From the NCBI GenBank assembly GCA_023105745.1, contig JALGQZ010000005.1, forward strand, positions 64,222,019 to 64,286,018: 64,000 bases of DNA. The letters are read 5' to 3'. The notes beneath the pieces are model-generated. The model saw nothing but the letters and a program-made list of their open reading frames with translations. It ran no database searches and was not told the origin of the DNA. The stretch comes from Austropuccinia psidii. Taxonomy: Eukaryota > Basidiomycota > Pucciniomycetes > Pucciniales > Sphaerophragmiaceae. Position 1 is the first letter of the stretch. Each line of letters opens with the position of its first letter. A program made the position numbers and the translations under genes. Below are positions 1-62,424 of this stretch, one piece after another.

Positions 1-1057
1 CACTCAATTGCCACTGTCAAACAACTTTGATTCAATTTTAGTAGCTGTGGCCAGATTCTCAAAAATGGCAATCTTCATTCCTACTTATGGCACAATCACT
101 GCTCTGGATTTAGCTCAAATCTTCATTAGTCATGTATTTTCCAAGCATGGACTTCCAGTCAGTATTGTCAGTGATAGAGGATCCTTATTTGTTTCATCAT
201 TTTAGACTCAATTGTGTCAGCAGCTCAAGATATCAAGAGATCTTTCAACTGCTTTTCACCCTGAAACAGATGGACAGACAGAGAGGGTAAATCAGATACT
301 AGAACAGTACCTTCGGATGTATGTCAGCTATCATCAAGATGACTGGTACACCTGGCTCCCTCTGGCTGAATTTGCCTATAATAATGCAGAACATTCATCA
401 ACCAAGCAATCACCTTTTTTCACCATTTATGGAAGGAATCCCAGCTTTGACTCAATCCATATTTCTCAAGACTCACCTGTTGGAAAGTTATCAATAAAAC
501 TCCAATCAGTACAGCAAGTTGTCAAAGAAGAATTAGAGTCAGCAATAAGGAGATTCAAGAAGTATGCAGATAGAAATAGAGCAATTCCACCTGATTTCCA
601 ACCTGGGGACAAAGTATGGCTAGCTTCCAAGAACATTAAGACAACAAGACCCACCAAGAAATTATCAGAAAGATGGTTGAGACCTTTTGAAGTTCTGAAG
701 AAGATTGGCAGTCATGCATATCACCTCAAGTTGCCTCAGCAATGGAAGACAGTTCACCCTGCATTCCATGTGTCCTTATTAGAACCAGTCAAGCATTCAG
801 CTATCCCAAATCGTCATCAATTGCCGCCACCACCAGTTTTAGTGGAGCAGCAAGAAGAATGGGAAGTGGCTCAGGTTCTGGACTTAAAACTCAAAAGAGG
901 TAAATTATGGTATCTTGTAGAGTGGAAAGGATTCAGCGAAGACCCAGAAAGAACCACTTGGGAGCCGGCTTCAAACCTTACCAACTCACCAGACCTTGTC
1001 AAGGACTTCCACTCATTATATCCAGACAAGCCTGGTCCAAATACCTCAAGAGTTTGA
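1..1057 (+). pseudogene. Ty3/gypsy chromovirus pol 3' end: integrase core, C-terminal domain and chromodomain
   Basis: This is the C-terminal part of a gypsy polyprotein that inserts retrotransposon cDNA into the genome. The frame enters from the left edge and ends with TGA at 1055-1057. Visible in order are the integrase core with the second catalytic Asp in VSDRGSLF and the Glu in DGQTERVNQILEQYL, a GPY/F-like C-terminal region (DKVWLASKNIK, HPAFHVSLLEP), and a chromodomain at about 860-1030 (WEVAQVLDLKLKRGKLWYLV, then EWKGF and TWEPASNL). The first catalytic Asp would lie just left of the window. An in-frame TAG at 203-205 falls where relatives have Trp (SSF-W-TQL), so a TGG to TAG change is inferred. 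Otherwise the frame is open for about 350 codons. The chromodomain places it among chromoviruses. Confidence 0.9.
203..205 (+). other. Premature in-frame TAG in gypsy integrase
   Basis: The reading frame on both sides is the same and encodes continuous integrase sequence, so this is a point nonsense mutation and not a gene boundary. A Trp codon (TGG) is expected here. TGG to TAG is a G-to-A change, equal to CpA-to-TpA on the other strand. Confidence 0.85.
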
Positions 1058-1530
1058 TTTATGGTGCTTGGTGGGGAGAAGAAGTTATGAAAGTAAGTTC
1101 CTCTCCTGGCATGCACCTTTAAGGGGGTATTCTACCCATATGTTGTTGTAAGCATCACCTTGGCCACTTTGTGAGCACTTGTCAGTTCTTTGGACAGGTT
1201 CAGGAAGCATACAACACCAATACCCTCCGATTTGGACCTTATCAAGATATGGCCAAATATTCCTTTCTTTCTTTTCATTTATCATTTCAATTTATGCCAA
1301 TCATCATAATTCAAGACATTCATTACTCCAAGTCATTTACGGCAATTCTTCTCAGAAGCCATTTATGGCAATTCATCTCAGAAGTCATTATGGCAATCTT
1401 TTCAATTTTATGGTGCTTGGTGGGGAGTGGAAGTTATGAAAGTAAGTTCCATCTCCTGGTATGCATCCCTGAGGGTTCTACTTCTTTTAAAACATCACCT
1501 TGGCCACTCTGTGAGCATCAAATGCTTGGT
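1058..1530 (+). repeat. Direct repeat in the gypsy 3' region, about 350 bp apart
   Basis: Sequence beginning TTTATGGTGCTTGGTGGGGAG right after the pol stop is repeated from about 1408. Both copies continue with a GTTATGAAAGTAAGTTCC block and later CATCACCTTGGCCACT with TGTGAGCA. Copy 1 spans roughly 1058-1180 and copy 2 roughly 1408-1530. Between them, at about 1335-1400, a roughly 26-bp unit (CATTTATGGCAATTC plus TCTCAGAAG) occurs nearly three times. No protein is evident. The repeat is probably part of the untranslated 3' region of the element. Confidence 0.75.
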
Positions 1531-1810
1531 TTTCATTTTTTCAGACACTTTTTTGGCCAGAATCAAGCAACTCACAACAAGAAGGACCAACCATCAGGAT
1601 TTTTCTTTATTTCTTTCTTTACTCTCATTTTCTCTTATACTTTTATTTTTCTTTCTTTCTTTACTTGTATAATTTTATTTCTTTTATTTCTTTAAAGCAG
1701 CAGCATCCCCTCCCAAATCATGTATGGGGAGGTTCCATTTTTTTTTCATCTTTTATTATTTATAAGAGTGGGGATAGAAGGCAAACCAAACACAAACAAG
1801 GAAAAGGAAA

Positions 1811-3168
1811 CTAGTTATCTCTACCCAAATCATCAAAGGTTCTCTGGAAATCATTTATCAACTCATCTTCATACCAGGCAAATTTTGCAGCCATCTCTTC
1901 AGAAGCAGTACCTGGGATAGTCCTGTCATTGGCATACATAATCACCTCTCTGCTATTCCTATCAACCCTCCTGAACAATCTGGCCACAGCATCTTGACTT
2001 TCACTAGCCGCGTTGGGATCTTCTCTGGTAACCCGGATAGGCCAACGTTCTCTTCTTTGAAAAACTTTAGCGGCAGGAAACGGCAGAGGGGACAATCCAT
2101 CTCTTCTTCTGCTGGAGCTGGCCACAGGTTGGAGTTGACGGGAGGTGTTTATGGGTGAGTTCCTGGGCTGTTGAACTGGGGATGGTCTTACTGCTGGATT
2201 CAAGGCAGGCCTGGTGGTGTGGGAAGTAGTTGGTGAAGGAGGAGGAAGGGTTGTAGGAATGGAGGCAAGCATTGGTTGGAAGGTTCTTGGAGTACTGGGA
2301 ATGACTTGACTTTGGAATCTGGTGTTGGCAAGAGGTTGAGAAGAGGAATTGCTGGATGGATGGCCAGTGGAATGAGGAATAACTTGAACTTCTTCACCAT
2401 CCAACTCATCACTTCCTTCAGAATCTGGATCTGATGGGGAATCAACAATTCTTCTTAGCTTCTTCACTACTTTCACCACTCCATCAGCATTGGTCCTTGA
2501 AATTGGAATTTCTGAGCTGTATTGGATAGGCCTACCACCAATTGGAATGGACCCTCCAACATTAGTCCATCTGGACACATCCCTCTGCCTAGAACCAGTC
2601 ACTACATCAAGATATCAGCACCAATTCAATCAAAGTATGCAAATCACTCACATTGAGAAAATCCAGAAGTGGCATCAGGGGTAGGCTCCTCAAGAATGGG
2701 GAATTCCTGCCCATAAGGCCCATCTTTCCTACTCCATAAGTGTCTCCTGACCTGGGACAAAGTCGATCCGGTATGGCGGCATGGCTTCTTCCCAACAAAA
2801 CAAAAATGGCATTTTGATGATCGAGGATTGTAATGTTGAAAGCAATCCTTTCCCTTGGCCAAACACTCAGTACAGGCAGGATCAAGAACTTCAACTGCTC
2901 TGAACCCATCATATGTTTGGGAAGGATCAAAATGGCCAGAAGACGCCATGGAAAGGGAGGACAATCGACTGAAGACGCCAGAACCATGAAGAACAGACGG
3001 TGGCGGTGCAGAAGGAGCAGATTCAGTGAGTTCAGTCAGTTTGGAACTCATAACTGAAGAATATGCAAGCAGAAGATTCAAGACGTCAGAATCAATCCAC
3101 TCCATATCAAGATAAAAGAATTTGACCTCAAGGAAATGGGGCCATAACTCAATTATGCCCCCCCTCAA
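1811..3168 (-). CDS. Antisense accessory gene of the gypsy element, Zn2Cys6-like cysteine cluster, one intron
   Basis: An intact two-exon gene runs against the pol gene between the pol stop and the 3' LTR. Exon 1 is 3168-2652 and exon 2 is 2601-1811, with a 50-bp intron (2651-2602; donor GTGAGTG, acceptor TAG). Splicing joins the frames exactly and gives 435 aa from 3168, or 396 aa from the Met at 3051, which I prefer because Ser/Pro-rich sequence starts there. Counting from that Met, Cys60, 63, 70, 81, 84 and 91 form C-x2-C-x6-C-x10-C-x2-C-x6-C, the spacing of fungal binuclear zinc clusters. A long Pro/Ser-rich linker follows, then a charged, probably helical C-terminus ending in RTFDDLGRDN. 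I recall similar proteins among rust 'hypothetical proteins'. Function is unknown; DNA binding is only suggested by the cysteine spacing. No stop or frameshift is visible, unlike the neighbouring pol. Confidence 0.8.
2602..2651 (-). other. 50-bp spliceosomal intron of the antisense gene
   Basis: On the minus strand the intron starts GTGAGTG and ends TTGATGTAG, with a plausible branch site TGCTGAT. Removing it joins ..SGFSQ to LTGSRQRDV.. in frame. An intron in an antisense gene of a retroelement shows that the antisense transcript, not the genomic RNA, is the spliced message. Confidence 0.8.
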
Positions 3169-3976
3169 AGCCTCTATGGTGAAGGTTCATACCCCTTTGG
3201 GGCTGAACTCATCACCCAGGGCCTCCCCTGCAATTTTGGGGAGGCCAGGATGTTGATGGTCCAGGCCATGTATGGTGAACTTTTATGCTTGGGCCATTTC
3301 TGGGCCCCTTGGTCACCCTGGGTCCCCAGCAAATTTGGGCCCAGGGGCTCCATTTTGGTCCTGGGGGCCTCCATTAACCCCCACGGACCACGGCGTACAG
3401 CCCGCGGACCGTAGGACCCCAAAATATCCAAAAGGCCAATTATGGCCAAATTCACCAAAACACCCGAAAAGGCCAAAAGGCCATAAAAAATCAAGATTTA
3501 TCAAGAATCATCAGGGTAAAGGCCACAGCCCAAAACATTTTGGAGGGCTGTTGAGGCCATTTCCATGGGTAATGGGGACAAGACCCCTTGGAGGATTTTT
3601 TTTTCAATGGATTAAGCCTTTCCCAATGAGTACACTTCATATACTCATTGGGCATCATTTTTTGAGCACAAAAGCTCAGTGGTCCTTATTCTGGGATATA
3701 TCCCAAGGCCACATCTCAAGGGCATGGTTGATTGAATCAGAAGAAAAGAAATGCATACTTCAAAGTGGAATACTTACTCAAACTTGGAAAAAAAAGGGGG
3801 GAATCAATTGAATTTGACAGAGAAGAAGTAATGAAGGATTTTCAGGATAATGTTCAAGAGGGAAAGAAAATTAAAAAAAGAAATTTTTTGAAAAAATGTG
3901 GGGATATTGAGATGCCACTCAACAGTGGCAGGGTATTATGGTGTTCAGGAGCCCACCAGTTTCAAGAGGGGGATAC
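3169..3976 (+). other. Gypsy 3' internal region and polypurine tract before the 3' LTR
   Basis: This stretch links the antisense gene to the 3' LTR. It has Lys/Glu-rich open frames (for example 3732-4001), but I recognise no domain and do not call a gene. The last part, TTATGGTGTTCAGGAGCCCA followed by TTCAAGAGGGGGATAC, ends in a purine-rich tract directly before the LTR. A matching block lies next to the minus-strand LTR near 61601-61640, which supports its identity as the conserved 3' end of the internal region. Confidence 0.65.
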
Positions 3977-4739
3977 TGTAACAACCATCCATCAGGGGTA
4001 AGGGTATTCATTCATACACCCACTCAAACACCCCAAACCAGCAAATCCAGTATCTGCAGCAGCATTCAGTTTCAGCAATCTTCATTCTGAAACATGCATA
4101 CAGCTTGGTACATCAATACAGCCTGTCAATACCTGTACAGGTTGGATTCACCCAATACAGTTTCAATACACCAATATGGAACTGTATGATCACTCAAATA
4201 CACCACACCTCTTGTACAAGTCCTGTACAGCTGTACAAGACCTGTATTGGCCAGACTCAATTCAATCATCAATTACTCTCATGAAAATTCTTCCTCTGGA
4301 TCAGGGCTGGTGATTCTCACATATACCAGCCCCTCTTTCTCCCCCCTGGGGACTTTTCCCCAGTTAATTAATTTAGTTTATTTATTATTTTATAATTATT
4401 CTTATCCTTATAATTGGGTATTATGATTATTTAATTTTAAGTTAGTCTTTGCCCTTCCTCTCTTTGCCTGTACAGTATGAGTTGGGTGGCCATATCCTTA
4501 TTAACCCTTCTCTTTCCGTTCTGACAGGTTGAAACAGTGGACTTGGACTTGTTTGTGGTTGGCTCTTCTATTTCTTACTCTTACTCTTGTTGCTGCTTTT
4601 TTCTTATTTTTATTCTTTTAGCAATTTATCTTTAACACTCTTCAGTGTACCCCTTCTTACCATATCTTTGAGCCCTCCATAAGTGAGTCCCAGTTTACTG
4701 AGTTCCAGGCCCTCTTCACTTCGAAGAGCCCCTGTGACA
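3977..4739 (+). mobile_element. 3' LTR of the gypsy element (family beta)
   Basis: The LTR starts TGTAACA right after the polypurine tract and ends TGTGACA, giving 763 bp with near-perfect terminal inverted repeats. It shares long blocks with the minus-strand copy at 60907-61600, including CACATATACCAGCCCC, AAGTTAGTCTT, CATATCCTTATT and GAAGAGCCCCTGTGA. The left part is dense in CAATACAG/CTGTATTG and CTGTACAG motifs. Its partner 5' LTR lies outside the window. Confidence 0.85.
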
Positions 4740-18176: not shown

Positions 18177-19515
18177 ATTCCCTACCATCAAAGAAAATTG
18201 TACCACAATATGATATAGCTAATTAGGTACCATTCACTATCCTACCTTTTCAATAGACTTTTTTAGTCTTGAAGCTCAATAACTCTCAAATTTTCTATTA
18301 TTAAGGTTTTCTTTCATTTCTAAGAATCCTTAATAGATTATCAGAATTAGCTATGTCTTAATCAAGTAGCCATTAATCTTCTTGAGTAAGATTTACATAC
18401 CTTACAAGGTATTCTCTTTCTTTTTTGTTTCTTGTCCTCTTTCCTTTCAGTATTTTACAATTTTCTTTCTTTCTCCTTCTAGAGGGGGAATTTCAAGAAG
18501 TGGTTTATTCATTAAGGGAAATGCTTCCTCATCACTTGAGATGTAAGTTTTCATAAGACCTAAAGGTAAAGCTGGGTGTTTGATCATCAGTTCACCTGTT
18601 AATTATAGTTGCACATCATTAGGGCCATGTAGTGCTCTTATCATTAAGGGTCCTGCAAAGGAATATTTTGATTTCTTTGGGCCTTTGATGTTATCAAACT
18701 TTAGATTTTATACTAAGACCAAGTCTCCTCCTTTAAAACTGGGGTTTTATGCTTTCTGTCCCATCTTTCTTTTGCATATTTGAAAGCATCTTGTATACAT
18801 CTTCTTGCATGATGTCTTTCTTTTTCAAGAATTATTTTGAAATTTTTCCTGTTGGATATATATCAACTAAGTCTTTTTTGAGAGTATCATAGGGAAGTCT
18901 TGAATTCCAACCTTTTTATAACATTTCTGGTGTTTTAACAATTGAAGAATGGATTGATGTCCTGTATCACAGTTCAAGAGCTTGCATAAGAGTATACAAA
19001 TAATGCTCAAAGCCATCAGAGCCTTTCAATTCTAGGCCATAAACACAGAATATTCTGATCATTTCCTCTAGAGTTTGTATCATTCTTTCTGCTAGTCTAT
19101 TAGTCTGAGGGTGATAAGCTGTTGATAATGATAATTTTGTTCCAAAAAGGGTTTGGAGATTTGTCCATAATGCTGAAGTGAATTTGGGATATCTATCACT
19201 TATGATATTTTGTAATAATCCTGGATGGCTAATTACTCTATTTAATATCATTGTGGCTGTGTCCATAGCTGTGTAATCTTTATGACATGGTAAGAACATT
19301 GGAGATTGAATGTTCCTTTCAACTGATACTAGGAATGCATTAAAACCCTGTCTCATCCTGGAGGTAAGGCTCTTACCCAATCCATGTGAACTATTTCCCA
19401 TGAGATATTGGTTCTTTAATTTGGAAAATAATTCCAAATTTCTTTCCTGTGGCTCTGTTTTCTTTTTGAAATCAGTCACAATTTTGAAAGTTCTCTGAAA
19501 GATTGTTTCTCCCAT
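18177..19515 (-). pseudogene. Outer gamma element: integrase and C-terminal chromodomain-like region, decayed
   Basis: The minus-strand frame 19515-18967 carries the integrase core: FLPCHKDYTAMDTATMI, IISDRYPKFTSALWTNLQ with the second catalytic Asp, and LAERMIQTLEEMIRIF with the catalytic Glu. Downstream (18967-18240) the DNA still aligns with the inner element's C-terminal region, but stops and frameshifts break the frame. The protein would have inserted element cDNA. It is not functional as it stands. Confidence 0.8.
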
Positions 19516-32344: not shown

Positions 32345-32936
32345 TTCCCACCACTAAGAAAGATTGTACCACAATCTGATATATTAATTAGGGTATCATC
32401 CACTGTCCTAACTCTTCAATAGACTTTGTTAGTCTTGAAGTTCCATAATGCTCAATTTTCTATTCTTCAGGTTTTCTTTCACGTATGAACCTTCTTCATA
32501 GTTTGTCAGAATTTGTTATATCTTTTTAAAGTAGCCATTCATCTTTTTGAGTTGGGTTTCTATACCTTACAAGGTATTCCATTTCTTTTTGTTTTCTTGT
32601 CCTTCTTTCTTTAAGGACTTTCACAATTTTCTTTTCTTCTCCTTCCTCTAAAGGGGGAATTTCAAGTGGGGGTGTATTTCTTAATGGAAATAATTCTTTG
32701 TCACTTGAGCTGTAAGGTCTTATCAGATTTACAGGGAAAGCTGGGTGTTTGTTCATTAATTCACCTGTGAGCTCTAGTTTCACAGCATTAGGTCCATGTA
32801 GTCTATTTATCATAAATGTTCCTGCAAAGGAATCTTTCAATTTCTTTGGGCCTTTTATATTATTGAAATTTAGAGTTGACAATAAGAACAAGTCTCCCAT
32901 TTTGAATTCAGGTGTTTTATGGCTTTTATCCCATCC
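32345..32936 (-). pseudogene. Inner gamma element: integrase C-terminal and chromodomain-like region
   Basis: The frame 32900-32526 encodes a GPY-like region (STLNFNNIKGPKKLKDSFAG, then INRLHGPNAVKLELTGELM), the HPAFPVNLIRPYSSSDKELF linker, and a chromo-like end (KVLKERRTRKQ, YLVRYRNPTQKDEWLL). Such domains help target integration to chromatin. Sequence downstream of 32526 to the LTR has stops. Confidence 0.8.
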
Positions 32937-33870
32937 TTATTTTGCATATTTGAAAGAATCTTGCATAAATCTGTTTTCATGGTGTCTTGCTTTGTCAAGT
33001 ATTAATTTGAAACTACTTGCTGTTGGGTGAAGATCAACTAAGTCCTTTTTGAGGGTATCATAAGAAATTCTTGGATTCCAGCCTTTTTCTAGCATTGCTG
33101 GTGTTTTGCCAGTTGAAGAATGGATTGATGTTCTATATGCTAGTTCAAGGTCTGGTATCAATGTACACCAATCATGGGTAAAACCATCAGAATATTTGAG
33201 TTCCAGTCCATAAGCACAGACTCTCCTGATCATGTCTTCTAAGGTCTGTATCATTCTTTCTGCTAGACCATCAGTTTGGGGGTGGTAAGCTGTTGAGAAT
33301 GATAATTCTTTTCTAAACAGGTTATGGAGGTTTGTCCATAATGCTGAAGTGAATTTTGGGTCTCTATCACTTATGATATTCTGGAATAAGCCTGTGTGGC
33401 TTATATCTTTATTCAATATCATTATGGCTGTGTCCATAGCTGTGTAATCCTTGTGACATGAAAAAAATTGGAGTTTTGCTGTATCTGTCAACTAGTACTA
33501 GGCATGCATTGTAACTTCTGTCTCCTCCTGGAGGTAAGGCTTTACCCAATCCACGTGAACTATATCCCAAGGGGATTTTGGTTCTTGGATTTGTATAATC
33601 ATTCCAAATTTCTACCCTGTGGCTCTGTTTGCATTCTGACATCTGTGACAGGTTTGGAAGTATTCTGCAACATCGTTCTTCTAATTTGGCCACCAAGAGC
33701 AGGTTTTTACACTCTCTAGTGTTCTGGCTTCTGAGAGATGTCCAGCTGCAACACTATCATGACATTCATGTAGTATAGTGTTTATCAAATTTCTATTTCT
33801 TAAAGCCATAACACATGTATGTTTAGTTCTATGATAGAGGATTTAATCAAGGAGGTGGAATATTCCTTCA
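32937..33870 (-). pseudogene. Inner gamma element: integrase (zinc-binding and catalytic core), frameshifted
   Basis: The core frame 33491-32937 holds IISDRDPKFTSALWTNLHNL (second Asp) and TDGLAERMIQTLEDMIRR (Glu). Frame 33696-33409 holds LPPGGDRSYNACLVLVDRYS, but a frameshift separates it from the first catalytic Asp, whose VHVDWVKA context is readable in another frame. The H2C2 zinc-binding region is readable only in pieces at 33700-33860 (RTKHTCVM, ECHDSVAAGHLS). Confidence 0.85.
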
Positions 33871-33934
33871 TCATATGCATTTTTCCATATTTCATCTAGT
33901 TTTGATGAAAGTGATGGGTCTTTACAGTATTTTA

Positions 33935-34558
33935 TTAGAAGTTGGAATAAGATATGACAGTTTTTGTCCATTTTATAGCTTTCTTAACTTGGTTCAAGAA
34001 TTTTGTGCCAATATCTGTGACACATATGCCTTCTACATGGTTCTCTTCCTGTGGTACCCATGCTGGATTTTCAGGTGTATTTGCCAGAGCCCATCTGCTA
34101 AGACCATCTGCATTTTTATGAATATTACCAGATTCATGAACTATAGTCATATTTACTCTATAATCTTGGATGGAAATTTGCCATCTTAGCATATTTCTAT
34201 TTGGAGTTTTCATATTTAATAGATATCTTACAGCATTGCAATCTGTAATGTCATCAAACAATGTTCCATCCAAATAATAGTGTAATTTTTCTAAAGCCCA
34301 CACTAAGCAGAGGCACTCCATTTGGCTTGCTCCATACCTTGTTTCTGTTTGCTTTATTTGTCTTGAAATGAAGCAAATTGGTCCTTCAACAGGTTTGCCA
34401 TTGATGAGTTGTGTCTGGTGTAGTGCAGCACCTAGACCTTCTCCACAAGCATCAATGCATAGTTTAAAGGGTAGTTTCCAATCTGGAATTAGAAGAAATG
34501 GGGCATTTGTTAAGGAATTTTTCAGTTCTTCATATGCATTGACTCTTTCTTCAGTCAT
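33935..34558 (-). pseudogene. Inner gamma element: RNase H domain
   Basis: The 207-codon frame retains [18 protein letters not shown] (first Asp), [15 protein letters not shown] (Glu) and [15 protein letters not shown] (third acidic residue), the usual retroviral RNase H order. It continues into [18 protein letters not shown], the tether to integrase. This is the best preserved domain of the copy. Confidence 0.85.
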
Positions 34559-47205: not shown

Positions 47206-47717
47206 GGGTATTGGTAAAAACACGTAAGGGGTGCCCTGGGCCCATTTTTAATTAAAAATGAAACACCATTGGGCCTGTATTGGGCCAAAACATGCCCAAA
47301 AGAGGTTTTTTCCCCACAAAGCCTCTCTAACTCCAAATTGTTTCAGATTTTTTTTGCCCAGCCCCCCCAAAAAAAACAAACAAGCTCAAACACACCAATA
47401 ATCCACATTATCCCCGACCCAAACCATTGTTTTTTTTTGGAAAAACAGCATTACCAAAGCCATTTTGCAAAGCTTTTCACACTTTTTTTTCTTTTTTCCC
47501 CCCGAAGACTGCATTTTCCACCACAACAACCTGCTTTCAAGCCTCTCAATTTTCAATTTTGTACCATCCCTCATCTATTAATCCCACATTTAAACCACTT
47601 CTGTTCATTTTTCACACCTTTTTTCACCTCTTTTTCACATTTCAAAAGGTTCTTACACCATTCCAAATCCCCCAATTCCCCCTTTTTTTACTTTTATACA
47701 TAATTTTCATTAAAAAA

Positions 47718-50700
47718 ATGCTTCAACCCCCCACTGAAGGTGAATTTCAGACCCTTGAGCTTCTTTGGCAACATGTGCATAATGTTTCCAGGGCTCAGGG
47801 GTATGCTGTGTCCACCTTGAGGTCCAATATGACCCACAACCAAATTGAAATATGTTGCGACAGGTCTGGCACCCCAAATCCCAACAAAAGCCCCTCCAAA
47901 ACAGTCACCTCAAGAAAGCTTGACTGTCCTTTTAGACTTTATGCCAGGAAATATGCCAAGAGTACCACTTGGACTCTTAAAGTCAAAAAATCTGGACATA
48001 GCCATGATGCCACTGAAAATATCATGGCACATCCTGCTTTCAGGAAATTCAATGAGCAAGAAATATCCCAAATTGCTCAAATGTCTGAATCACTCCTCAT
48101 GCCAAGGCAAATTCAGGCCAGTTTATGCAGCCAGAGGGAGTCTGACAGGCCTGTAATCCTTAAAGACATTTATAACCAATTCAAGAAAATCAAGAAAGAC
48201 AAACTGCAAGGCAGAAGGCCCATTGATGCTCTTATTGACACTCTCAAACAAGAGAATTTTGTTTGGTCCTCTGCAAGGGATTCTGAGGGACACATTACCT
48301 CCTTGTTTTTTACTCACCCCCTGGCCATAAAACTTCTTCATGGCTTTCCTCATGTCATTCTTATGGATTTTACTTATAAAACCAATAAGTACAAAATGCC
48401 CCTTTTTCATATTGTTGGATTCAGCTCAACAAATAAGACCTTTTCTGGGGCTTTTTGTTTGATGAAGAATGAAAATGAAACTTCATATACTTGGGCATTA
48501 AATCAATACATTGAAAAGGTCCTCAACAACAACAATATTGTTCCCCCTCCAGTCATTGTTATTGACAGGGATCTGGCCTTGAAAAACTCTACTAAGAAGC
48601 TCTTCCCAGACTACAAAGTCATGCTATGCATTTGGCACATCAACAAGGATGTATCTGCTCATTGCATGAAGAAAATTGGTCATGGAACTGATTTTGAAAA
48701 TTTTATGGGCCTTTGGAATCAAGTAATATACTTCTTCACTTTATTTCATTTTATTTCACTTTTTTTCTTATTATTGTCTTTATTAATGACTTTGGGATTC
48801 TTTTCTCAGCTTATGTATTCACCCACTGAAAGGTCTTTCAAAGACAACTGGAAGAAGCTTCAAAAGCAAGTTAAAAATGCTGAGGTCTTGCAGTATTTGG
48901 ACAATACCTGGCTTCCTTTAAAGGAGTATTATGTGCCAGCCTGGACCAACCACCATTGCCACCTGGGTGTGGGATCCACCTCCAGAGTTGAAGGTGCCCA
49001 TGCCATGGTTAAAATTTGGCTACAAAAGTCCACTGGTACTCTCCTGGAGGTAGTCAGGGCACTCCACATGGCATTCAGAAAACAATTTATAGAAATTATC
49101 AACAGAATCTCCAAAGAAATGATTGTCCATGTAAAGAATTTTCCTCCACACATCTGTGCCCTCAATGGCAAGGTGTCTCATTATGCTCTTCAGATTGCCA
49201 TTGAAAATTTCAAAAAAAAAATTCCTCCAAATGAAAAATGCACCAGCAAATACAACAATTATAAAGGCATTCCTTGCAAAGACAAGACCCAAAAGGCATT
49301 TGCCAAGCGCCAAAGGCTTGAATTATCAGACTTCCATCCTCAATGGCATTTGAATTTGCCTGTGAGGGTTTTTTAATTTCTTCTTATTATTTTTTTTCTT
49401 ATTAACTGATTTTATTTGTCATATTCTTCTCAGACTGGTTTTCAAGGTGATTATCAAAGTGTTGAAAAATAAAGAAAGAATGAAGCCAAGAAAATATTTG
49501 AAGACATTGGAGAAGACCTGTTTCAAAGACCAATGGCAGAAATCACTCCAATACTCTAGCATTTTCAAGATGTTTTGACTGGAAAAGTCCCATTTGATCA
49601 AATTCCCAAGAGTCAAGAGGATGATCAATATTATGAAGACCCTCTAGAATGCAAGAATATCCGTGGAAGACCCCAAGGAGCCAAGAATAAAAACAAAATA
49701 GAACCTTCAAGATTTGAAATTATTGAAAGTCAATCCAAGAGAAGAGGAAGACCCCCATCAAAAGTGACTAGCACAACAACTTCAAGATCCCAGTCAAATG
49801 TCCCCTCTCCAATTATGGAAGTGGACTCATCTGAAGATTCTGAAGATTCTGAGGACTCATTATCTAAATCCATCAGTTCATCAGATTCACTACTCTCAGC
49901 AACTGAATTAAATAAATAAGAAGTAACCCTTAGAAGGTCAAGGAGATTGGCAATTGGAAGCAAAAAATCACAAAGAAAATCACACAAGCCTGCCACCAGT
50001 TTGAATATCTATGATGCAATTGACTTGACCTGTGAGCATTGTCAAAGCAACTATCACACAAGTGATGAATGCTCCAAGCTGTTTGTGAGTTTCTGATTCT
50101 TTTTAATGTAATTTTATGTTGTTTATTTTGATATTTATTCATTTTTTGAACTTATTTTATCAGATAACTGGCTCAGAAGACTTGCCCAAGTTTATATTGA
50201 AATACACCTTCAAGGCCATCAATGTCCAGGGTGATGGAAACTGTGGCTACAGAACAGTATCCCACTTCATTTACAAGACTCAAGATCAATGGGCTGATGT
50301 CAGAGGTGACTTGGCTGAAGAAATTCAACAAAATCAAGACTTTTATGAAGCCATGAAAACCTTAATTCCCTCAGTATCCTCTTATTTGGGAATAATTGAA
50401 TGGTATGAAGATGTTGGCCAGGCTCCAAAAAGCAAGTGGATGTCCATGCCTGACATGGGAGATCCAATTTCAAATAAGTATAAAAGACCAGTTTTCTTTT
50501 ATTCCACAGCCCAATCTTTTCTTTTTTCCCTTATTTCTGTCCTCCAAATGATCATCCCCCCATTTTCATCTGCTTCTTCAATAGTTGTGCTCATTTTGTT
50601 CCTTTGGACATCATCATTTCTAAAGTTTATCCAGTTCCCCCCATTACTGTGAGCTGGGAGATTCATGCCCAAGCACAAGCCCTGGGGTGGGCTGATAAAT

Positions 50701-60906: not shown

Positions 60907-61600
60907 TTTCACAGGGGCTCTTCTCAATAAAGAGGGCCTGGCACTCAGTGAACAGACTTCCTTATGGAGGGCTCAAGGGAATTAATCAAAGAATAAGAGC
61001 AATGAAATAAAAGGTATGATTCCTACTGATAAAAAATGAGCATGAAAAGACATAAAATAAAAACAAAAGCAATAACAAAGAACCAACCACAAATAATCTT
61101 GAATCACTGTTTCACCCTGTTCAGAAAAGAGAAAAGGATGAATAAGGATATGACCACCAGGACTCTACTTAACAGGTGAGGGAAGGGTAAGACTAACTTA
61201 ATAGTTAATAAAATAGTACCTCTGAGTGAGAAATAAAATAATATTAATAATGAATCAAATATCTTAAGTCACCGGGGGAAAAACCCTCAGGTGGGTGAAA
61301 GGGGGCTGGTATATGTGAATAAATGCCAGCCCAGAGTTTGAGTTTTGAGAACCCATGACTGTATGCTGGAGTAATCTGTATTTTAGATGTAAACCTGTAT
61401 TGTTGCATCCAATACAGGTATTTGCACCTGTATTGAGGACAGGCCTGAATTTGGTTAATACTGTATTTGGGTTTTTCCTGTATTGAGGTTTGAAAGTGTG
61501 TTTGGTGGATCTTCCATGAAACCCCCTTGTTGATTAGGTGTTGGAAGATCTTCAATTGGTAATGATTGGTAATGCCCTGCCTGTCTCCATGGCTGTGACA
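60907..61600 (-). mobile_element. Beta-family LTR, minus strand
   Basis: Read on minus, it begins TGTCACAG at 61600 and ends TGTGAAA at 60907. It aligns with the LTR at 3977-4739 in order, including CACATATACCAGCCCC and GAGCCCTCCATAAGG. The polypurine tract AAGAGGGGGATAA lies directly upstream (61601-61613), so this was the 3' LTR of an element whose interior extends to the right. Confidence 0.85.
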
Positions 61601-62424
61601 TTATCCCCCTCTTGAAATCGGTGAGCTCTGAGCACCATAAAAAGAAGTGAATATTGATTAGATCAATTAAAACAATCTTTCTTCCCCCAATTACCCAATT
61701 TTCATCCCCCATAATTCCTCTTCATCAATCATAACTCAAAAACATTTTTGATCTTCATAGCTTGTAGGTTGTTTTGCTTTGACTTGATTCTAATTCTTCT
61801 CTTCTTCTTTGAAAAATATATTTTACTTCTTCTTCTCCTGTGATATTTTTATTTCTTCTTCTCATTCCAGTGTTCTTCATCCAACTTGTCTTGAGTCATC
61901 ATGGCTCAAGATAAGTGGATTAATTCAAGTTTATGTCCTAAGAACACTCTGCCATTGAATAACTTTTATTAATCTTGAATTTGGGCTAAAAATTGGCCCT
62001 TTCATGATTGTGGACGATTTCAGAAGTCCATTGAAACCTCCTCAATTTTTATGTTTTCTGGGGTTTTTGGGCAATTGGGCCAAAATGCCCAAAATGCGCA
62101 ATTATGTCATTATGCAAGAAATTCAATAACTTGTGGAAGTTTTGATCAAAAGTGGCTGAATTGACAAATTTGATGGTTTTTGAGAATTGCCAGAAATGCA
62201 CAAAGTTCCAAAAATGTGCAAAATGCGCAAATATGCCAATATACATGAAAATGGCATATTTGATGAAAAACTGAATAAAATGAAGATTTTGAAAGTTTTG
62301 AAGCAGAATTAGCCAAAATTCACAAAATGCACAAAAGTGTGCAAATGAGCCAATCAGCCTTTTTTTCTTTGACTTTAAATGTTTCAAAGGCCTTTCAGAT
62401 GATTTCAAGTGATCATGCTCACAT
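61601..62424 (-). pseudogene. 3' internal remnant of a beta gypsy element
   Basis: Next to the LTR, minus-strand TTATGGTGCTCAGAGCTCAC matches TTATGGTGTTCAGGAGCCCA at 3929-3948 of the + copy. Similarity becomes patchy further in. A 119-codon minus frame at 62408-62049 is Phe/His-rich with no recognisable domain. No antisense gene is present in the retained part. Confidence 0.6.

Follow-up and report, generated by a model that had tools for sequence, protein, structure and literature searches.

We analyzed a 64,000-nucleotide (nt) stretch of the genome of the rust Austropuccinia psidii (assembly GCA_023105745.1, contig JALGQZ010000005.1, positions 64,222,019 to 64,286,018; hereafter the window), of which positions 1-4739 are the 3′ part of a Ty3/gypsy chromovirus. 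Between the pol gene of this element and its 3′ long terminal repeat (LTR) lies a genuine two-exon gene on the opposite strand, which belongs to the element, travels with it and is under purifying selection as a protein. The predicted product carries six cysteines with the spacing of Zn2Cys6 zinc clusters, and the remnant of a CGG/CCG triplet array is found upstream of its start codon. We give even chances to the reading that the product is a nuclear, dimeric regulator encoded by the element, with the array as its candidate target and with possible service in trans to relatives that have lost the gene.

Structure of the Antisense Gene

Copies were sought in the window's own assembly (1,015,390,075 bases in 84 contigs, the window lying on contig C5) and were picked by hand down the match lists, namely 20 of 149 other matches to exon 1, 20 of 144 to exon 2 and 20 of 137 to pol. 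Selection was by similarity to the window proteins, which favors young copies; identity is 92-100% in the 150 genome matches to exon 1 that were scored, window included.

The initial annotation had proposed a gene of two exons at this place, and its two reading frames indeed join through a 50 nt GT-AG intron (GTGAGT...TAG) at exactly 2602-2651. The coding sequence runs on the minus strand from 3051 to 2652 (exon 1, 2652-3051) and from 2601 to 1811 (exon 2, 1811-2601, with the stop codon at 1811-1813), and the spliced product has 396 amino acids (aa). The GT-AG borders are present in 41 of 41 sequences as well as in all 15 gene-bearing copies of the pol-chosen sample. Both intron flanks are covered in 86 of 120 annotated homologues from A. 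psidii MF-1, which are predicted gene models and not RNA; none of the 86 has an insert, and the junction residue is identical in 68 of them.

The gene had been drawn out to position 3168, an extent that we had to correct. An ATG at 3051-3049 is conserved in all 54 gene-bearing sequences, whereas only 23 of them have the ATG at 3105 and 31 have GTG there. In a tree of the 54 sequences, 3052-3105 shows 7 inner-branch replacements and 0 silent changes, and 3106-3168 has an inner-branch ratio of replacement to silent substitution rates (dN/dS) of 0.93; the end-branch values of 0.40 and 0.55 for these two segments come from small counts. Because the ATG at 3051 is invariant and no inner-branch constraint is seen upstream of it, we place the coding start at 3051.

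Stop codons interrupt exon 1 in 3 of 18 exon-1-chosen and 4 of 20 exon-2-chosen copies, and exon 2 in 6 of 18 and 0 of 20, respectively; the 15 gene-bearing pol-chosen copies have none. In the window, the antisense frame is open and the visible part of pol has a single in-frame TAG at 203-205, so that the gene does survive beside a broken pol as had been noted, but taken by itself this contrast says little, with one stop in roughly 350 pol codons and none in 396.

In a protein search, 606 of 7995 scored predicted proteins passed an E value of 1e-3, and the best 120 of these 606 are all A. psidii MF-1 "hypothetical proteins". A search restricted to longer proteins (455-1449 aa) gave four hits, all from A. 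psidii MF-1 (three long models of the antisense gene and one fusion with a copia gene), and no longer protein with the domain from outside A. psidii was among the matches listed. No relative was detected in the viral contigs searched. One MF-1 model, P0243, is a copia polyprotein that ends in exon 2 of the antisense gene, probably a nested insertion fused by gene prediction.

Linkage of the Gene to a Chromovirus

The host element has gag, the order protease, reverse transcriptase, RNaseH and integrase, a chromodomain ending the integrase, and two LTRs, as expected of a chromovirus. The 3′ end of pol in the window (2-1057, plus strand) comprises the C-terminal part of integrase and matches the Pfam families SH3_Tf2-1 and Chromo. 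In copy L013, the gag region matches Retrotrans_gag/Ty3_capsid and a pol frame of 1244 codons contains RVP_2, RVT_1, RNaseH, rve and Chromo, ending with the same domains. A spacer (1058-1810), which contains an imperfect 120 nt duplication (1058-1177 and 1407-1517), separates pol from the antisense gene. The non-coding, fast-evolving 5′ flank of the gene (3052-3976) includes a polypurine tract at approximately 3964-3974 and is followed by the 3′ LTR (3977-4739, plus strand, TGTAACA...TGTGACA). Both a piece of the 5′ LTR and the 3′ LTR were found in 11 of 20 copies, and since they differ by only 0.6-4.3% over 219-716 nt, these insertions look young.

Among the exon-1-chosen copies, which are scattered genome-wide, 18 of 20 show the full order of pol, spacer, antisense exon 2, exon 1 and flank; the gene is thus not one that occurs mostly outside this type of element. 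In the remaining two, a deletion joins pol directly to exon 2 (L020), or exon 2 is mostly lost and a related gypsy element adjoins (L025). A 3′ LTR follows the gene in 18 of 20 copies, the exceptions being L013 and L014. Approaching the question from pol, we found an exon-2 match at the expected place in at least 29 of 138 scored loci, and 20 further pol loci without a listed exon-2 match were fetched, of which 15 proved to be gene-bearing and 5 gene-less. As this sample skipped loci adjoining a listed exon-2 match (0 of its 20 have one, compared with 29 of 138 overall), 5 in 20 overstates the gene-less share. A conserved antisense open reading frame (ORF) between pol and the 3′ LTR in most copies places the element among those described as aORF-3R.

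The MF-1 gene models show the same neighborhood. Two pol models (P0152 and P0212) extend into the complement of the antisense gene, and antisense models extend into its 5′ flank in eight cases and its 3′ flank in six. Locus tags of pol and antisense models, using 118 of 120 pol hits (two without tags were omitted), gave three directly adjacent pairs and four within six tags on equal-length contigs, which is weak evidence alone given a shift null for any contig with a mean of 1.4 and a maximum of 7.

Purifying Selection on the Encoded Protein

Pairwise Nei-Gojobori dN/dS values for 19 sequences were 0.42 for pol, 0.21 for exon 1 and 0.33 for exon 2, compared with 0.93 for the flank and 0.76-0.83 for the spacer, which thus behaves as non-coding DNA. 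The annotated frame is the only one of exon 2 with a low value, the five alternative frames giving 0.54-1.72. As a guard against selection bias, each exon was tested in copies chosen by the other: exon 1 gave 0.22 (0.18-0.28) in 20 copies chosen by exon 2, and exon 2 gave 0.33 (0.26-0.43) in 18 copies chosen by exon 1, with flank values of 0.97 and 1.07 in these sets. In the 15 pol-chosen copies, exon 2 gave 0.19. The dN/dS sets exclude L020 and L025, and the 54-sequence counts exclude the five gene-less copies.

Inner and end branches were also considered separately. In the tree of 54 gene-bearing sequences, window included, inner-branch dN/dS was 0.15 for exon 1 and 0.07 for exon 2, against 1.14 for the flanking non-coding DNA; end branches gave 0.46, 0.52 and 1.01, respectively. 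Inner branches of the 19-sequence set gave 0.21 for pol, 0.21 for exon 1, 0.08 for exon 2 and 0.89 for the spacer. Codon changes were classified on the commonest codon, and near-identical copies are not independent. The low inner-branch values indicate that the gene was kept by selection during the spread of the element and decayed afterwards, as did pol. The constraint that the initial annotation had suspected is therefore real: the two exons lie at 0.07-0.33, inner-branch or pairwise, and nowhere near 1. The most constrained part tested is the last 68 codons (1814-2017), with an inner-branch value of 0.02; the 52 codons around the cysteines gave 0.12, and the six cysteine codons themselves show 0 inner-branch replacements and four on end branches.

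The Cysteine Module and the Upstream Triplet Array

Zn2Cys6 clusters follow the pattern C-x2-C-x6-C-x(5-12)-C-x2-C-x(6-8)-C. The six cysteines of the antisense protein (C60 to C91; 2779-2874, minus strand) fit it, with the spacing C-x2-C-x6-C-x10-C-x2-C-x6-C, exactly as read in the initial annotation, and all six are present in 36 of 41 sequences and in every one of the 15 pol-chosen copies that bear the gene. AlphaFold2 was fairly confident only at a predicted C-terminal helical hairpin (block means of the predicted local distance difference test, pLDDT, of 65-80 for residues 331-390 of P0003; approximately 1829-2002 on the minus strand of the window). A structure comparison of model 1 covered this hairpin alone and returned generic matches, with no Gal4-type chain among those listed. 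The idea of a zinc cluster with swapped halves was set aside, because such pieces scored no better against Zn_clus than cysteine-preserving shuffles: 12 of the 30 pieces made were scored and 7 gave a match (best 15.5 bits), compared with 3 of 10 shuffles (best 16.9 bits). Neither of two short native pieces gave a match.

The window contains few CpG dinucleotides (observed/expected 0.17). A decayed remnant of a CGG/CCG triplet array (3382-3412) lies some 330 nt upstream of the antisense start codon. In young copies the array is dense, and in 11 of 20 exon-1-chosen copies it holds the triplet maximum of the locus, 281-342 nt upstream of the ATG. The triplets are most often arranged as CGG-N4-CGG, CGG-N1-CCG and CCGCGG. 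The array core 13-mer CCGCGGCGTACGG occurs 1236 times in the genome and its reversed control 0 times. On contig C1 to 43.5 Mb, 11 of 13 pol loci have the core downstream of pol, on the pol strand. Of the 75 clusters of the 13-mer there, at least 25 have a listed element feature at a distance of 4.5 kb or less (the shift null has a mean of 0.6 and a maximum of 5). The typical site of a Zn2Cys6 homodimer is a pair of CGG triplets, which may be inverted, direct or everted (PMC5559640). Judged from sequence, the antisense protein may act on the array.

Gene-less Relatives

The five gene-less pol-chosen copies (L049, L051, L057, L062 and L067) all retain sequence alignable to the last codons of the gene, and L051 and L057 are also alignable to a stretch at its start; they are therefore most likely derived by deletion. 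In a tree with a distant outgroup, their LTRs form one clade (support 98/93), and a gene-bearing copy is its neighbor (96/94). The deletion ends differ, so they may go back to a single event or to several. Used as a query, the L051 junction yielded 43 matches from the 40 candidates scored (3034 candidates at first look); nine of the matches adjoin one of the 138 pol loci, and 0 lie at a pol locus with a listed exon-2 match.

The gene-less copies retain the array. The maximum number of CGG/CCG triplets per 80 nt is 9-16 in the five gene-less and 6-17 in the 15 gene-bearing pol-chosen copies. Of the 11 array-bearing loci on contig C1 to 43.5 Mb, 5 have a distance from pol to the array of about 2.0 kb and 6 have one of 3.2-3.4 kb, as derived by hand from positions. 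An apparently richer array in gene-less copies vanished once young gene-bearing copies were included (P 0.44).

A Candidate Regulator and Its Alternatives

We propose that the gene would be transcribed from just inside the 3′ LTR back toward pol and that its mRNA would lose the intron in vivo to encode a largely disordered protein, with an N-terminal module that may bind zinc and a C-terminal hairpin. The mobile RNA has the opposite polarity, so the intron would survive copying of the element. The protein would dimerize, act in the nucleus and regulate the element through DNA binding, with the array approximately 300 nt upstream of its own start as candidate target, and deletion derivatives that keep pol and the array without the gene may be served in trans. 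A wider reading, which we advance tentatively and would sooner doubt than assert, is a complete antisense control circuit made up of a protein of the zinc cluster type, a promoter of its own and an operator of tandem CGG/CCG triplets, all selected in maybe thousands of copies; gene-deleted sisters would keep the operator and use the regulator in trans, and this two-level parasite system would have helped to shape one of the largest fungal genomes.

Several results weigh against a regulator of this kind. Pfam Zn_clus (PF00172) was above cut-off in 0 of 68 family members and in none of the window exons, a PDB sequence profile search gave no zinc cluster protein among the matches listed, and the cysteine region has no confident AlphaFold2 fold (pLDDT block means of 34-49 in two models). 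In an alignment by the cysteines, the position of Gal4 Lys18 is occupied by Gly. This lysine contacts DNA in Gal4, and the position is likewise unconserved in Pho7 (PMC5559640). The array is decayed or missing in the exon-1-chosen loci outside the 11 in which it is the triplet maximum. The gene is dispensable in cis, since gene-less copies have multiplied too. Among the 120 MF-1 homologues, the cysteines showed 12.8 end-branch changes per site compared with 8.6 elsewhere, in a star-like protein tree; we counted this protein-only result against the reading until the DNA copies of the window's genome answered clearly.

The MF-1 cysteine losses are mostly to Phe (73) and to Tyr in six cases, a G>T skew. 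Among DNA copies of the window's genome, the commonest changes are C>T and G>A, unlike in MF-1. The MF-1 skew is either an assembly artifact or the mark of a different mutation regime.

It is possible, although we do not favor it, that the protein is another accessory factor, such as an RNA- or protein-binding helper in packaging, nuclear import, integration targeting or a block of host silencing, and that the array is a CpG-rich minisatellite or a promoter element with no connection to it. The absence of a detected DNA-binding family in the Pfam and PDB searches would agree with such a role, as would the generic hairpin matches and a constraint that peaks in the last 68 codons and not around the cysteines. 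The zinc cluster spacing, the lack of inner-branch cysteine replacements and the position of the array on the 5′ side of the gene argue against it.

A self-limiting repressor or competitor exerting copy control, with the gene-less derivatives as escapees, seems unlikely to us. The multiplication of gene-less copies agrees with it, and HBZ, an antisense protein of human T-cell leukemia virus type 1 (HTLV-1), lowers sense expression (PMC10186651). Selection among copies of the element would hardly maintain a pure repressor, yet the inner-branch dN/dS is very low, and sequence cannot tell the direction of an effect.

We think it very improbable that the antisense RNA matters instead of the protein, through double-stranded RNA or interference with the sense transcript, a role suggested broadly for the antisense ORFs that plant elements carry (PMC7264820), because the low dN/dS is specific to the annotated frame and thus reflects selection on a protein. 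The idea of a functionless passenger, a host gene fragment captured once, can practically be dismissed: deletion derivatives exist, but inner-branch values far below 1 beside a flank near 1 contradict it, and the search of 455-1449 aa proteins, within that length range and at that sensitivity, gave no host parent gene.

Other Features of the Element and the Window

By eye, the leader following the 5′ LTR does not resemble the usual tRNA primer site. In 8 of the 11 copies with both LTRs (L011, L012, L015, L016, L018, L019, L022 and L026), the reverse complement of the leader has a 14 nt match (AGTTAATTAATTTA) within the LTR (about 4362-4375 in the window LTR); in the other three, the match is 11, 9 and <8 nt long. 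This complementarity suggests self-priming like that of Tf1. The gag and pol open frames overlap by 16 nt in seven of nine listed copies (L009, L011, L013, L014, L015, L018 and L023), which may indicate a programmed frameshift.

Elsewhere in the window, a diverged solo-like LTR at 60909-61640 (minus strand) is, in pieces, 75-85% identical to the LTR of this element. Two other gypsy pol remnants at 32487-34558 and 18736-19515 (both minus strand) have 27-28% identity to its pol, and no plus-strand ORF of at least 120 aa is listed in the 5 kb downstream of either. By reading, the plus strand at 47427-50652 holds a long ORF resembling a transposase of the MULE type and, after it, an ORF that is OTU-protease-like along part of its length.

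Comparison with Known Systems

For LTR retrotransposons, antisense genes are a long-standing observation to which no role has been assigned (PMC7264820). In the case described here, strong selection is combined with a cysteine module, a strand-fixing intron and a candidate array, and the genome itself supplies gene-less copies as natural controls, so that the role of such genes becomes accessible to standard binding and reporter tests. The case is also relevant to the question of how the A. psidii genome, just over 1 Gb and more than 90% covered by transposable elements (PMC8063080), reached its size. The titles and abstract beginnings listed in searches of the open-licence literature gave no such antisense gene in rusts or other fungi, and no link of a zinc cluster or CGG triplets to LTR retrotransposons; the word "antisense" is absent from the searched text of PMC12210899 and PMC8063080. 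Fungal antisense genes are nevertheless on record, as the Boty elements of Botrytis carry one named brtn (PMC7264820, PMC8365987; also mentioned in PMC4227169 and PMC5987419). The Boty-like elements of Botrytis cinerea are likewise fungal chromodomain gypsy elements with an extra antisense gene; their host is an ascomycete, unlike the rust, and the comparison covers the type of element and the presence and strand of the gene.

In plants, maize Grande gene23, rice RIRE2 and bean PvRetro13 have an antisense gene between pol and the 3′ LTR, as here (PMC7264820). Gene23 is transcribed from a promoter upstream of the gene and its protein is nuclear; the genes of this group have no clear similarity to known proteins, and the text consulted mentions neither a cysteine cluster nor a CGG array (PMC7264820). 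The TRP28 antisense ORFs of Retand elements are predicted to bind DNA, and about half have tandem repeat arrays in the same region. Retand differs in being a plant non-chromovirus with a TRP28 domain, and an intron is unmentioned in the text searched (PMC11963269).

Gal4-type Zn2Cys6 factors share with the antisense protein the cysteine spacing, nearby CGG triplets and a helical part elsewhere in the chain (PMC5559640), and differ from it in the profile match that it lacks, in the Lys18 position and in a fold that was not predicted here. A working analogue is HTLV-1 HBZ, which is likewise encoded in antisense at the 3′ end of a retroelement and has a spliced form; its product is a transcription factor acting on the element's own expression (PMC10186651). 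HBZ is a bZIP protein of a retrovirus with its promoter in the 3′ LTR, and the likeness is in how the two would work. The suggestion that a gene of this type had not been described thus needs dividing: antisense genes at this place are already known from Grande, Retand, Boty brtn and HTLV HBZ, that is, from plants, fungi and retroviruses, whereas the details of the A. psidii gene are new.
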